Shown here piece after piece: positions 2,163-8,803 of a stretch of DNA of 10,689 bases (positions are counted from its first letter, which is position 1; every line of letters starts with the position of its first letter). The stretch is from contig CAPQQE010000027.1 of assembly GCA_948687865.1 (NCBI GenBank), positions 2,247-12,935 of the forward strand, in the 5' to 3' direction. The notes below the pieces were generated by a model. That model did no database searches. It was not told where the DNA came from and was given only the letters and a program-made list of their open reading frames with translations. The DNA is from an uncultured Bacilli bacterium. Its GTDB lineage: Bacteria; Bacillota_I; Bacilli_A; RF39; UBA660. The position numbers and the translations under genes were made by a program.

Positions 2163-2836
2163 ATGCTAAAACCGTAGATAAACAAGTAGAACTTACATGG
2201 ACTGCCGCTGCTAAACCTGAGTATTTAACTGATGATTATTTTAGAAATTATTATAAAAAGTTCTATGGTAAAAAGTTAGAAGAACAATTAGCAGCTAGAA
2301 AAGCAAGTGATGGAGAATACGGGTACGAAGTTTTAATGAAAGATAATCAAACAGGTGCAGTAAGTTCATTAGGATTTACTACTAATACTTCATTTAAAAC
2401 TACTAAACAAAGTAAAAATGTTACTTATATAGTAAAGACATGTTATAGCAATCTTAGAATAACTGCTAGTTCTGGTGCTTCAATAGAAGTTAAAGGTGAA
2501 CCTGAAATAACTACTAGCTTGATAACTTATAAAATGAGTGGTAATGAGCAAGATAAAGCAACTATAGGAACCCCTTATATAGATCCTGGATTTACAGCAA
2601 TATATAGTGATGGTATAGATGTAACGAAAAACGCTAAGGTATTAGTTTCATGTGCACAATTAAACATTGATAATAAAGCTCAAAAAGAGTCATATACATT
2701 TACTAAAGCAGGAACATATACATTAAAATATACAATTACATATGCAGGAACTACAGAAGTTGCAACTAGAACAATAACTGTTTCTGAAGCCCCAACTCCA
2801 AAACCAGATGATGATAGTAAATTAGAAACGCAATAA
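2147..2836 (+). pseudogene. Frameshifted C-terminal part of the PBP: FN3-like plus DUF5011/Ig-like domains
   Basis: This frame encodes 229 residues to TAA 2834-2836 and continues the PBP after a one-base shift. At the junction, GTA TCC CC must be followed by AAT GCT ACT; one base is missing from the frame-0 reading within TCCCCAA (2142-2148). The first part (NATGLNAK, VELTWTAA, then YGYEVL) looks like an FN3 fold with an insertion. Nucleotides about 2522-2785 match the DUF5011/Ig-like pattern: GTPYIDPGFTA, DGIDVTKN, AGTYTLKYTI and a closing TRTITV. A Pro/Asp-rich tail follows. Such domains sit outside the cell in PBPs and cell-wall proteins. The first in-frame ATG is at 2336 and I see no good RBS for it or near the junction, so separate translation is unlikely. 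A real mutation, a sequencing error in the C run, or recoding are all possible; an error or recent indel is most likely, because the downstream frame is undamaged. Confidence 0.8.
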
Positions 2837-4650: not shown

Positions 4651-4926
4651 TTATTTATTAACTGATTCTTTAAGTTTGCTTCCAGCTTTGAAAGATACGC
4701 TATTTCTAGCAGCAATTTTAACTGGTAAACCAGTTTTTGGATTTCTTCCTTCTCTAGCAGCTCTTTTGCTAACTGAGTATGTTCCAAATCCAGTTAATGT
4801 AATTTTTTCTCCTTTTTGTAATTCTTCGGCAACTACATTCATAAATGCTTCTAGAGCACGAGATGAATCTGCTTTTGTTAAACCAGATTTTGCTGCCATT
4901 GCTTCAATTAATCCTGCTTTTGTCAT
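4651..4926 (-). CDS. hup: HU-family histone-like DNA-binding protein
   Basis: Small basic nucleoid protein that binds and bends DNA as a dimer. The 91-aa length is typical. The N-terminal helices (MTKAGLIEAMAAKSGLTKAD) are followed by the family signature GFGTYSVSKRAAREGRNPKT (47-66), where GRNPKTG and the downstream VKIAARNSVSFKAGSKLKE form the beta arm and the closing strand. The arm tip usually reads NPxTG, as here; the usual proline after it in IPA is replaced (IAA). Start ATG 4926 is preceded by GGAGGT at 4939-4934, seven bases away. It has its own promoter and terminator, as expected for an abundant single-gene transcript. IHF can be set aside because Bacillota normally encode HU alone. 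Confidence 0.95.
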   Translation of the reverse strand: MTKAGLIEAMAAKSGLTKADSSRALEAFMNVVAEELQKGEKITLTGFGTYSVSKRAAREGRNPKTGLPVKIAARNSVSFKAGSKLKESVNK

Positions 4927-5050: not shown

Positions 5051-6217
5051 TTAAGCTGCTTTATTCATTGAAAGAAATTGATTTATATCAATAACATTAT
5101 TTACTTCTTTTTGTTTTATATCCGTTTTTATAATAGTATTTTCTGTTCTTCTCTTGTTAAAATTATTTAATATTGAAGTTTTTTTAGCTTGCGTAGAATT
5201 AGCTATTTTTACAGGATTCATTGCTGAAGTTATTGTTACTATATAAGAAGGATTATTATCCTCACTAGGAATGCTATCTAATTTATACATAGATGAATTA
5301 ATATCCATATTGTCATTATTATTTAGAGTATTAATATTTCTATCTAAATTAGGTAATTCTATTTTATCATTATTATTTGGAGTATTAATATCTCCAGTTA
5401 TATTAGTTAATTCTACTTTATCATTACTATTTGAAGTATTAATATCTTCTATTAAATTAGATGATTCTATTTTATTTGTATTTACCTCAAGAATACTACT
5501 TTCTAAATTATTATCTTGATTATTTAATTCAATATTAGTATCATCTTTTTTATCTTTGTAATATTGCAAATTATCAAGTAATGCAGATTCTTCATAGCTT
5601 TGTGCATTTCTATTATTAAATAAAACTGCTAATTTTGAATGGATAGAATCATCTTCTTCTATATCCATACCGTTTTTTCTAAATGTACGTTCTATTATTT
5701 GAGTAGTTGAAATATCACTTTTAGATATTATACTTCTATTTGAAATCTGTTTATAAATGCCATCTACATTAGTATTTATAATATTTATATTGGAATTTAG
5801 CGATTCTATATATATTCCTTCTTTTACATCGATTTCTTGTTTACTATTAATAATACTGTCAATTCTTTCTTTAATATTATCTATTTCTTCATTTATAGCT
5901 AGATATCGTTCATATAAGTCTTTATCCATAGGTTCTAATTTTTGCTTTTGTTCTTTTTTATAATTTATTTGAAAAACAATATCTCTTGCTTTTTGGGCAT
6001 CAATAGAAGTTAAATTTACAGAATCCTTCATTTTTTCATTTAACCTATCATATTCTTCATTAAATACTTTTAACTCTGAAACGATTTTATCATATTCTTC
6101 TATCTGCTTTTTTATTTCTTTATCTAATTCATTTCTTTTATTCAATGAATCTACCAACGAATCATGTAATTGCGCCAATGCTGATGACTGTTCTTCCTTT
6201 AACTGAATAATTCCCAT
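5051..6217 (-). CDS. Coiled-coil protein of unknown function with internal 18-residue repeats
   Basis: I do not recognise this family. The 388-aa product has no signal peptide or membrane segment and is predicted to be cytoplasmic. Residues 1-130 are long charged helices with heptad character (NKRNELDKEIKKQIEEYDKI and LAINEEIDNIKERIDSI), probably an antiparallel coiled-coil hairpin. Residues 249-302 are three consecutive 18-residue repeats (K-[IV]-E-L-x-N...-I-N-T-x-N-x-N-D), Asn/Asp-rich and likely disordered or extended. The C-terminus (324-388: PSYIVTITSAMNPVKI, then INQFLSMNKAA) is less biased and may be a conserved docking segment. RBS GAGGTG (6230-6225) lies seven bases before ATG 6217. 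It is the last of four closely spaced genes (18-nt gap from the preceding one). I see only a weak hairpin with T-rich sequence after its stop. Confidence 0.75.
   Translation of the reverse strand: MGIIQLKEEQSSALAQLHDSLVDSLNKRNELDKEIKKQIEEYDKIVSELKVFNEEYDRLNEKMKDSVNLTSIDAQKARDIVFQINYKKEQKQKLEPMDKDLYERYLAINEEIDNIKERIDSIINSKQEIDVKEGIYIESLNSNINIINTNVDGIYKQISNRSIISKSDISTTQIIERTFRKNGMDIEEDDSIHSKLAVLFNNRNAQSYEESALLDNLQYYKDKKDDTNIELNNQDNNLESSILEVNTNKIESSNLIEDINTSNSNDKVELTNITGDINTPNNNDKIELPNLDRNINTLNNNDNMDINSSMYKLDSIPSEDNNPSYIVTITSAMNPVKIANSTQAKKTSILNNFNKRRTENTIIKTDIKQKEVNNVIDINQFLSMNKAA
5313..5474 (-). repeat. Three tandem 54-bp repeats inside a coding region
   Basis: Units at 5313-5366, 5367-5420 and 5421-5474 each begin TCATTA on the plus strand and end near TTCTA-TTTA. 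They share most bases, with differences scattered as substitutions and no indels, and encode residues 249-302 as three 18-residue repeats. The exact multiple of three keeps the frame open. An imperfect, shorter copy may lie just N-terminal (NLESSILEVNTN). Confidence 0.9.
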
Positions 6218-6235
6218 GATTTTTCACCTCTTATC

Positions 6236-6508
6236 TTATTTATCTTGTTCCCTAAGTGATTTATATGTCTCGGAAAATATTTTATATGCTTCCTGTCTTT
6301 CCTCTTCATTTTCTAAATCTTTCATCACAGATTGATTATTTTCGGAAACTATTTTAGATGAATATATTGAAACATTATTATTATCTTTTTCATCTGTTAT
6401 AAAATAATAAATATATTCATTAGTGTTATTTGATGATTTTAATCTTGTTATAAAGGTAGCCTCTGCCTTTTTACCATTTGATAATTCTACCTCAAACTTA
6501 TTTTCCAT
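6236..6508 (-). CDS. DUF1292-like small acidic protein, copy 2
   Basis: A 90-aa soluble protein. It starts with short strands (FEVELSNGKKAEATFITRL), then EYIYYFITDEKD, a variable Asn/Ser-rich stretch, and an acidic C-terminal helix (NEEERQEAYKIFSETYKSL). The same landmarks occur in the 86-aa gene at 8014-7754: TRL, EYIYY, EKD, and an EEE...A..[FL]F..TYK.L ending. The layout resembles DUF1292 (YrzB-like) proteins, whose function is unknown; that assignment is by pattern only. RBS AAGGAGGG (6522-6515) is six bases before ATG 6508. It lies 15 nt after one coiled-coil gene and 18 nt before the other, so it is clearly co-transcribed with them. Confidence 0.75.
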   Translation of the reverse strand: MENKFEVELSNGKKAEATFITRLKSSNNTNEYIYYFITDEKDNNNVSIYSSKIVSENNQSVMKDLENEEERQEAYKIFSETYKSLREQDK

Positions 6509-6523
6509 TTTTATCCCTCCTTA

Positions 6524-7738
6524 TTACATTCTCATATTTTGGCTATTACTAATATACATAGCATTTTGTATTTTTTGTTCTTCTAATTTATGTTCTAATT
6601 CTGCCTTTATAGATTTTGCCTTATCTATATCAATTGCACGTTTTACCTCTTCTGAATCTGCAGATAAAACATCACCTTTTAAAACTGGGATTACTTCTTT
6701 TGCCTTATTCATATCTGTATGAAAATACTTAACCATCTCATGATTTAATTGTGAATTTTTTTGATTATTATAATCAATATCTTTTATTTGTGCTTCAGAC
6801 ATAAAATCTAAAATTTCCTGATCAGAATAATGTACACCATTATTTTTTACATCATCAAAAGCTTCATTTAAATCTTCTTGTCTTTCAATATGAGATTTCA
6901 TTTGATCTATTTTTTCATTTAAATTATCAATAGTATTTAATGCTTCATCTAGTTTTTCTTGGATATCTTTAGTTATAATATTACAAAACTTATTGTATAT
7001 TCCTTTTATACCCCCTACTAACTTACCAATTGATTTTTTATAAAGATCTTTCATTGTTCCTATTGTTTCATCTTTACCTTTAGCAACTATACTATTTTTC
7101 TTAGATTTTAATGTAAATTTTTTCTTTTGTTTTACCTTAGGTTCTTTTATTTTTACGTTAGGGGTATCAACTAGTTTATTATTTTCTGAAATTCTAGAAT
7201 CAATTTTTTGCTTAATGTCATTTTTCTCTTCTATAGTTAAGAAATTATATGAATGTATATTAGATGCTATAATAACTAACTCAGTTACTTCTTTTGCTTT
7301 TAATAATCCAGGTTTATTCATTATTGCATTATACTTTTCTATAAACTGCTCTTTTTTACTTTCCGATTCAACTCTTTTTATTTCCTTTTCTTGCTTTCTC
7401 TCTTTTGAATTTTCTATTTCATTAATTACTTTCATTTTTTTCTCTTCTAATTGTTTATTAACTATTTTCTCAAAATCCCTAACATCATCTTGTAAATATA
7501 TATACTCTTGTCTTATTATATTTCTATTTTTTTCTAGTTCTCTATATTTAGATCTTTTTTCTAAATATTCATTTACATCCACATTAGAAGATATTAGTTT
7601 ATCAATAGATATATCTGGATAATTCTGTTCTATATTGGTAACTTCTTTATCTAACTTTTCAAATAATTCCTTTGCTTTTGACTCTTGATTTCTCAAATCT
7701 TCCAATTTTTTTAAATTTTCTTCATAACTTGAATCCAT
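6524..7738 (-). CDS. Large coiled-coil protein of unknown function
   Basis: I do not recognise this family. The 404-aa product lacks signal peptide and transmembrane segments. Residues about 5-135 are nearly continuous charged helix with heptads (EENLKKLEDLRNQESKAKEL; RELEKNRNIIRQEYIYLQDD), interrupted near 40-55. A globular-looking part follows (140-190: MNKPGLLKAKEVTELVIIAS). Residues 196-222 form a very basic linker (KIKEPKVKQKKKF, then KSKK and AKGK), which could contact nucleic acid or membrane phosphates. An amphipathic stretch (IGKLVGGIKGIYNKFCNII, 237-255) leads into a second coiled coil (257-295). The C-terminal ~100 residues are mixed helix, ending NSQNMRM. RBS AGGAGG (7749-7744) is five bases before ATG 7738. 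The 15-nt gaps on both sides place it in a four-gene operon between the two DUF1292-like genes. Confidence 0.75.
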   Translation of the reverse strand: MDSSYEENLKKLEDLRNQESKAKELFEKLDKEVTNIEQNYPDISIDKLISSNVDVNEYLEKRSKYRELEKNRNIIRQEYIYLQDDVRDFEKIVNKQLEEKKMKVINEIENSKERKQEKEIKRVESESKKEQFIEKYNAIMNKPGLLKAKEVTELVIIASNIHSYNFLTIEEKNDIKQKIDSRISENNKLVDTPNVKIKEPKVKQKKKFTLKSKKNSIVAKGKDETIGTMKDLYKKSIGKLVGGIKGIYNKFCNIITKDIQEKLDEALNTIDNLNEKIDQMKSHIERQEDLNEAFDDVKNNGVHYSDQEILDFMSEAQIKDIDYNNQKNSQLNHEMVKYFHTDMNKAKEVIPVLKGDVLSADSEEVKRAIDIDKAKSIKAELEHKLEEQKIQNAMYISNSQNMRM

Positions 7739-7753
7739 AAAATCCTCCTATAC

Positions 7754-8014
7754 CTACTGTAAATTTTTATATGTGTTTGCGAAAAGTTCAAATGCTATTT
7801 TCTTCTCTTCTTCACTTTCTATTTCTATTATCTCTTCTTCACCATCATCATCTATATCTACTCTTCCTGAAAATAAATAATTATCTCCACTACTATCTTT
7901 TTCTCCGTCAACATGATAGTAAATATACTCGATACCAGTACCATCTACTTCCAATCTTGTGACTACATGGGCAATTTTATCTACCCCATCTACATTTATA
8001 CTAAACTCATTCAT
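7754..8014 (-). CDS. DUF1292-like small acidic protein, copy 1
   Basis: The 86-aa product is strongly acidic, especially DIDDDGEEEIIEIESEEE in the C-terminal half. Pattern: FSINVDG, VVTRLEVDGTGIEYIYYHVD, EKDSSGDNYLFSGRV, then a helix KKIAFELFANTYKNL. It aligns without difficulty to the 90-aa protein at 6508-6236, so the two are paralogues. The order of strands, a central Tyr-rich strand and an acidic C-terminal helix fits DUF1292 (YrzB-like), of unknown function; I infer the family from layout. It is the first gene of the four-gene operon. RBS AGGAAGGG (8033-8026) lies 11 bases before ATG 8014, a little far. The stop is TAG. Confidence 0.75.
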   Translation of the reverse strand: MNEFSINVDGVDKIAHVVTRLEVDGTGIEYIYYHVDGEKDSSGDNYLFSGRVDIDDDGEEEIIEIESEEEKKIAFELFANTYKNLQ

Positions 8015-8082
8015 ACTCTAATATACCCTTCCTATTATATATATTATAATAACATTTTATTTGAAATAAGTCTACATTTTTG
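8015..8082 (-). promoter_or_regulatory. Leader and probable promoter of the four-gene operon
   Basis: The space between the cpsB terminator and the first small gene contains a perfect TATAAT on the minus strand (8048-8043), in a very AT-rich run. The position 17 nt upstream reads ACTTAT, a poor -35. The strong terminator just upstream makes an independent promoter likely, but the exact site is uncertain because a second TATAAT occurs in the AT run (8039-8034). Confidence 0.4.
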
Positions 8083-8121
8083 AAAAAAAATAATGCTATT
8101 TAAGTAATTCTTTAGCATTAT
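8083..8121 (-). terminator. Rho-independent terminator overlapping the end of cpsB
   Basis: On the minus strand ATAATGCTA (8121-8113) pairs perfectly with TAGCATTAT (8098-8090), and an inner AAG/CTT pair can shorten the 14-nt loop. A run of seven T follows (8089-8083). The first arm and loop are inside the last codons of cpsB, and the second arm contains its TAG stop (8098-8096). Confidence 0.85.
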
Positions 8122-8803
8122 CTTCTAAAATTGCATTTATTTCTTGTTCTGTTAAATATTTTTTAAATATTTTTCTTGAATTTTCTATATAATTATAATC
8201 TTTTTTATTATGATGAATATCACTAGCTACAAATTGTACTAGATGTTCTTTTAGCATTCTCTTCATCATTTTTTTTGCGTGTTTTCCATAATCCCCTAAT
8301 ATACTTCCTATATTACACTGAAAACTTACTCCAATGTCTTTTAATTCATATAATTTACTAAAATCCGCTTGGAAAGATGCATACCTTTCTGGGTGAGCTA
8401 ATATTACTTTATATCCTTCTTGAATTAAATCTAAAAATATATCCAAGTAATTTTCATATATACCACTCATAGGAAGTTCTATTAGTAAATTCTTTGTACC
8501 ATTTATTCCAGTTATTAACTTTTCTTCAAGAAGTTTATCTATTTCTCTATCTATATATATTTCATTTCCTAAATACAAGTTAATATCTACATTTTCGTCT
8601 TTTAGCATTTTTTTTAGTACATTTAATTTTTTTATATTAATACTGTGTGGACTACTGTGTGAGCTAGAGTCTATATAATGAGGTGTTAAAACTAAATCGG
8701 TAACACCTATACTTTTTAGTTTTTTTATTATATATATACTTTCCTCAACAACTTTAGCACCATCATCTACACCATATAATAAATGTGAATGTATATCAAT
8801 CAT
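8096..8803 (-). CDS. cpsB: PHP-family tyrosine-protein phosphatase (CpsB/YwqE-like)
   Basis: Metal-dependent phosphatase that removes phosphate from the tyrosine cluster of the partner BY-kinase and so controls capsule or exopolysaccharide chain synthesis. The metal ligands of the PHP fold are visible in order: IDIHSHLLYGVDDG (His5, His7, Asp13/14), TPHY (His42), GNEIYID (Glu81), LAHPERY (His137, Glu139) and ASDIHH (Asp195, His197). The length of 235 aa is close to the ~250 aa usual for the family. Its ATG (8803-8801) overlaps the TAA of the kinase gene by one base (TAATG), so the two are translationally coupled and should be made in fixed ratio. It is the last gene of its operon. A general PHP hydrolase such as histidinol phosphatase is excluded by the motif set and by the kinase partner. 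Confidence 0.93.
   Translation of the reverse strand: MIDIHSHLLYGVDDGAKVVEESIYIIKKLKSIGVTDLVLTPHYIDSSSHSSPHSINIKKLNVLKKMLKDENVDINLYLGNEIYIDREIDKLLEEKLITGINGTKNLLIELPMSGIYENYLDIFLDLIQEGYKVILAHPERYASFQADFSKLYELKDIGVSFQCNIGSILGDYGKHAKKMMKRMLKEHLVQFVASDIHHNKKDYNYIENSRKIFKKYLTEQEINAILEDNAKELLK

Follow-up and report, generated by a model that had tools for sequence, protein, structure and literature searches.

Gene organization of the module

The stretch of DNA analysed here (hereafter the window; 10,689 nucleotides from an uncultured Bacilli bacterium) carries on its minus strand a module of four genes in which two small genes alternate with two large ones, separated by gaps of 15, 15 and 18 nt, which is the layout that an earlier note on this DNA had described. 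We refer to the products as SmallA, LargeA, SmallB and LargeB, and to the two small-large units as pair A and pair B (Table 1). Along the minus strand the gene order is CpsD-like kinase, CpsB, SmallA, LargeA, SmallB, LargeB, HU, CCA tRNA nucleotidyltransferase and DnaD. No Rfam families were found in the window, and a sequence search of solved structures gave no relative (best E 0.56). Elsewhere in the window (2336-2836), a 166-aa protein with weak matches to surface repeats is encoded between PBP1A and DnaD, and tblastn matches to this protein occur at the equivalent place in several relatives.

Table 1. Position and properties of the module genes, their conserved elements and the flanking genes in the window.
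Feature	Position	Strand	Description
CpsB-like gene (context)	8096..8803	-	immediately precedes pair A in the window, G419, G134 and G064
Promoter block heading the module	8044..8074	-	TAGACT, 17 nt, TATTAT, with TG preceding TATTAT
SmallA	7754..8014	-	86 aa, acidic, net charge -16, DUF1292-like
LargeA	6524..7738	-	404 aa, helical; residues 201-250 form a basic segment of net charge +13
LargeA conserved stretch	7034..7090	-	residues 217-235, IVAKGK..TI..M...Y type
SmallB	6236..6508	-	90 aa, DUF1292-like; highest conservation among the module's four
LargeB	5051..6217	-	388 aa; N-terminal heptad periodicity, second half polar
LargeB conserved stretch	5156..5209	-	residues 337-354, KIA....K...I...F type; anchors in relatives chosen by eye
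LargeB C-terminal NKAA, ssrA-like ending	5054..5065	-	
HU gene (context)	4651..4926	-	directly downstream of LargeB in 12/12 loci

The small proteins are paralogues of the DUF1292 type

The small proteins had been called DUF1292-like and plain paralogues, and both statements held up. Against the Pfam family DUF1292 (PF06949) they score 21.0 and 21.7 bits, slightly below the gathering cut-off of 24, which neither reaches singly, and the matches cover positions 2-72 and 8-72 of the 75 in the profile. When an alignment of SmallB proteins was compared with PF06949, 59 of its 73 members matched with E values of 1 or lower, the best being 2.3e-5. A profile of the module's small proteins (alignment A3) also finds members of the family that are linked to ruvX, such as G076:C25:4585 (E 1.8e-9), which itself scores 45.5 bits for PF06949 and sits between the RuvX and YceG/MltG genes. 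This ruvX-DUF1292-mltG gene order is absent at the module, where the small genes have CpsB, HU and the genes of the large proteins beside them.

SmallA and SmallB share 28% identity (BLASTP, E 2e-7). In a tree of 29 small proteins the A proteins form one clade (support 99/98) within an A+B clade (94/98, marginally below the starred level of the tool) that excludes the ruvX-linked and other DUF1292 proteins. Of 200 bootstrap trees, only 1% show the B proteins alone as monophyletic, and A is therefore probably nested somewhere within B. These comparisons support the view that the small proteins are paralogues of the DUF1292 (YrzB) type, and the position of the A clade inside the A+B clade indicates that the small gene was duplicated.

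The large proteins evolve fast

The large proteins share little obvious sequence, as had been noted: BLASTP detects no similarity between LargeA and LargeB (best E 0.62). Profile-profile comparison, which had been put forward as a check on their relationship, did not support it, with hhalign probabilities of 0.3, 2.7 and 15%, and cross-HMM searches between the two yielded nothing solid. Homology of LargeA and LargeB was consequently set aside as a candidate, since none of the three approaches gave it solid support. The earlier proposal that a two-gene unit was duplicated thus stands for the small half only, where BLASTP and the tree agree, because the large proteins are not demonstrably homologous. 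One short stretch common to LargeA and LargeB gives a hint of homology that we take as a pointer: it is significant in LargeA of G134 and G064 (p 0.003 and 0.014), but in LargeA of the window and of G419 the best-scoring place falls elsewhere (p 0.10 and 0.21), and hhalign placed the short LargeA stretch at two different places in LargeB.

A heptad-like periodicity in the N-terminal 130 aa beats that of shuffled sequences (p < 0.05) in 15 of the 16 large proteins tested, the sole exception being LargeA of the window itself (p 0.19). Of the N-terminal coiled-coil layout ascribed to both large proteins, the periodicity is significant in LargeB and falls short of significance in the LargeA of this genome.

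Among the window, G419, G134 and G064, pairwise identities are 23-31% for LargeA and 25-38% for LargeB, as against 36-63% for SmallA, 54-74% for SmallB and 63-80% for CpsB; for CCA, DnaD and CpsD, compared in three of these four, they are 54-59%, 69-76% and 69-79%, respectively. The large proteins thus evolve fast, with 23-38% identity while neighbours retain 54-80%. Protein searches with LargeA and LargeB returned only the window's own copies (the LargeA search scored 7995 candidates, those with most words in common), a result that is evidence of divergence rather than of absence because these searches missed orthologues that were later reached by synteny. Likewise, a search of 145 genomes of the family of G134 with LargeA (Large1) found nothing at E ≤ 0.01, but it was too weak, since G134 itself has an orthologue, which was found by position. 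The speed at which the large partners change hides their orthologues from protein searches, and synteny reaches them.

Distribution of the pairs in related genomes

Starting from the CCA protein, we reached an uncultured Bacilli genome (L001) and, through it, 385 sampled genomes of the same order, which we take to be RF39 by way of the CAG:433 link. Strong matches to the small-protein profile (E < 1e-15) were found in 8 of the 385 genomes, plus three more in one genus, and SmallB is present in all eight genomes of that genus that were examined. With a SmallB profile of nine proteins, 249 matches reached E ≤ 1e-3, and among the best 120 of these is a protein named after Clostridium sp. CAG:433 with 71% identity to SmallB of the window.

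Pair B was found in the window and 11 relatives, and in all 12 the small gene, the large gene and HU follow in that order, the large gene lying at -1 to +28 nt 3' of SmallB. A LargeB profile of six proteins recovers LargeB of G418, G092 and G167 and does not recover that of G144, G024 and G190; in these three, orthology rests on position, on the small partner and on the KIA-type stretch, as well as on the AA end in G024 and G190. Pair A was found in the window, G419, G134 and G064 only, in each case between CpsB and SmallB. Small and large genes are therefore adjacent in 12/12 pair-B loci and 4/4 pair-A loci (window included), as expected from the pairing that had been claimed, and the recurrence of the same gene order in relatives shows that the module is more than a chance arrangement. 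Pair A occurs in one subclade only, with a small gene that belongs to the B lineage, and pair B is the wider and presumably the older of the two.

Since a small acidic gene precedes a variable long gene and the large protein evolves fast, the pairs might be toxin-antitoxin, effector-immunity or chaperone-effector units. We regard this as very improbable: PADLOC and PHROGs gave no match for the four proteins at E up to 0.1, the window's large proteins have no significant Pfam or NCBIfam domain, and the position before HU is fixed in the chromosome at 12/12 loci.

An aligned block lies upstream of the first small gene in 11 modules (four headed by pair A and seven by pair B; G024 was omitted) and consists of an ACT box, 8-12 nt, and AAATG(G/T)TA(T/A). 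A regular expression for this block matches the head of the module in 10 of 12 cases (not in G190 or G024) and has just two other matches in 215 kb of 14 related loci, counts that are descriptive because the expression was derived from the sequences that it scored. By our judgement the block is a housekeeping promoter with an extended -10, and the best explanation of the locus is a short transcription unit holding two partner pairs. In the window this block separates CpsB from SmallA. It thereby bears on the reading that pair A regulates capsule or exopolysaccharide export together with the CpsB and CpsD-like kinase genes, which do lie directly upstream of pair A at all four of its loci. This reading is improbable in our estimate, since apart from the intervening promoter block, CpsB and CpsD-like genes precede pair B in G417, which has no pair A, and 7 of the 12 pair-B loci have no CpsB directly upstream.

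DUF1292-like genes across the order

The co-occurrence of DUF1292-like genes with an adjacent gene was surveyed at 72 places, two of them in the window and the other 70 drawn for the most part from the higher ranks of the match lists; these are high-scoring matches that are partly mutual orthologues and form a non-random sample. A co-oriented ORF begins within -60 to +66 nt 3' of the DUF1292-like gene at 64 of the 72 places. Under the same rule, other genes of the fetched loci have such a neighbour in 384 of 844 cases, and genes of 75-125 aa in 86 of 191 (Fisher p 1e-13 and 3e-11 for the two comparisons, kinship ignored); an earlier background of 260/484 tight neighbours had been obtained under a rule other than that of the survey. 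In this survey a DUF1292-like gene is thus usually placed shortly before a co-oriented gene. The 8 places without a tight partner comprise tandem DUF1292 genes (L089, L159), a contig end (L148) and five partnerless genes under the longest-ORF rule (L094, L135, L146, L147, L165), a shorter ORF being close in L094 and L147.

The 64 tight partners fall into 34 clusters. The largest, with 10 members of which two were checked against Pfam, is YceG/MltG-like and corresponds to the partners in the ruvX-linked loci; one other partner is MurD-like. A Pfam scan of 42 partners, from which the YceG cluster and near-copies were excluded, found no family common to two members, and single partners match SLT and MgtE_N. 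Most DUF1292 partners outside the module are anonymous helical or disordered proteins. In two natural fusions, an N-terminal DUF1292-like domain is followed by a long tail (E 1e-16 and 3e-11, searched against a small target set). One, chosen by eye (L079:140-1075), is a 311-aa protein of G064 with a long helical tail, encoded 2-3 kb from the four-gene module; the other (L086:4911-5948) is preceded by a separate DUF1292-like gene.

Two further arrangements were seen by eye at these loci. Tandem DUF1292-like genes stand before one longer gene in L089, L132, L139, L153 and L159, and several of the longer proteins appear to end in a membrane helix. In L141, L142, L144, L145, L152, L156 and L157, a second small gene, encoding ~90-108 aa of the 'YEL..NYK..F' type, often lies just upstream of the DUF1292-like gene.

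The pairs could also be unrelated genes held together by operon structure and by synteny around HU, and about 45-54% of the other genes in these loci are indeed tightly followed by a gene. Such mere neighbourhood nevertheless has only a small chance of being the whole explanation, given that the module and HU remain intact in G064 although they lie at another contig place than CCA-DnaD, that small-large pairing is seen at many other loci, and that two fusions exist.

The earlier note had also suspected a system that had not been described. DUF1292 is a named family, and with the small-large theme recurring at many places in the order, the window is not alone in having such a module; what stands of the claim is that the literature searched gives no function. 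Word searches, mostly of titles, brought up none for DUF1292/YrzB, and a search for DUF1292 brought up one passage in PMC13014144, the term being absent from the main text of PMC8528326.

Pair B and spoIVA

In G190 and G144 pair B is located between spoIVA and HU, and in G092, G167 and G418 a C-terminal piece of spoIVA lies upstream of it. Moreover, PMC10868615 predicts RF39 to form spores, with an unusual gene set. Pair B might then be a sporulation component, helping SpoIVA or the spore coat's base layer. We consider this unlikely: spoIVA is found in 347 of the 385 genomes of the order as against strong SmallB matches in 8 of the same 385, G024 has pair B without a spoIVA match, the gene directly upstream is CpsB and not spoIVA in the window, G134, G064, G419 and G417, and the promoter heading the module is, by our judgement, of the housekeeping type. 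A sporulation role could not be argued from co-occurrence either, as spoIVA is near-universal in the sample and its neighbourhood is therefore uninformative.

Independently of the module, spoIVA is split near residues 119-124 (loci L202, L036, L037 and L189). Four of the eight examined genomes of the genus (G092, G167, G418 and G360) carry it as two pieces with a boundary near residues 119-123. A fifth, G417, yielded the first piece (1-124) alone, and in G419, G134 and G064 the gene is whole. Both pieces lie on one contig, ~10.4 kb apart, in G418 (L202, G418:C4:51500-64000). The element between them encodes a serine recombinase of 526 aa (Pfam Resolvase, Recombinase) and a protein of 2740 aa that matches Peptidase_M26_N and GLUG, and an exact inverted repeat of 22 nt marks its two ends. 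Homologous recombinase genes adjoin the C-terminal piece in G092 and G167, and a recombinase-like fragment was seen by eye beside it in G360. Counted by eye, 33 of the 347 genomes have two or more spoIVA matches, some of them perhaps owing to contig breaks. The element is a candidate for a skin-like, developmentally excised insertion. None of the titles listed by a word search for spoIVA and intervening elements concerned an interrupted spoIVA, and the splitting of this gene by a recombinase-bearing element merits a study of its own.

The C-terminal end of LargeB

LargeB ends in AA in 8 of 12 cases and in A in 10 of 12. Among 813 other naive ORFs (≥100 aa), some of which are surely spurious, the last residue is A in 12 and the AA end does not occur (Fisher p 1e-16 for AA, kinship ignored). 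The remaining four LargeB proteins and all four LargeA proteins lack the AA end, and 7 of 39 other DUF1292 partners end in A, three of these seven belonging to one cluster. The conserved Ala-Ala end might make LargeB a target of ClpXP-type proteolysis, with the small partner either preventing its breakdown or favouring it.

A possible role for the pairs

Partnership between small and large proteins is supported by adjacency, joint inheritance, recurrent pairing and fusion; the roles of chaperone, inhibitor or scaffold subunit that the earlier note had suggested are an inference. Each pair consists of a DUF1292-like small protein encoded immediately before a long, fast-evolving, helical and partly polar or disordered protein. 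We tentatively favour a reading to which we give somewhat less than an even chance, namely that two partner pairs make up one short transcription unit, in which the small proteins bind the helical large ones as a dedicated chaperone or adaptor of scaffolds. The small protein would bind its large neighbour during synthesis and act, once bound, as a dedicated chaperone or adaptor, while the large protein would be a cytoplasmic coiled-coil scaffold. Charge could bring the acidic SmallA (net charge -11 to -18) into contact with the basic stretch of LargeA. The YceG/MltG-like partners (10/64) count against the scaffold part, since these are a membrane enzyme and no scaffold, and 34 partner clusters are odd for one chaperone family unless something generic is recognised.

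More speculatively, and with a rather low probability in our view, DUF1292 proteins may be a general class of small co-translated adaptors that were copied often within this order of Bacilli with small genomes, each with its own fast-evolving scaffold, the small protein controlling the lifetime of LargeB via the ssrA-like tail. If true, this would be the first function suggested for YrzB, which is encoded beside mltG. The recurrent pairing of DUF1292 with long partners in this lineage, together with the two fusions, in any case offers a testable binding hypothesis.

Comparison with known systems

The sigK gene is interrupted by the skin element, which the recombinase-bearing element between the spoIVA pieces of G418 resembles. 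ssrA-like degrons are marked by a terminal Ala-Ala, and LargeB shares it with such C-degron substrates of ClpXP in 8/12 cases, kept in orthologues, whereas none of the four LargeA proteins does.

With DUF1292/YrzB/UPF0473 (PF06949), the small proteins of the module share their size, most of the profile and a profile link to the ruvX-linked members, but they score below the cut-off, form a clade apart from those members and have other neighbours. Finally, operon-encoded chaperone-client pairs exist, for example the class I chaperones of type III secretion. Although no secretion system is known in this case, here too a small acidic protein is encoded just upstream of one long protein.
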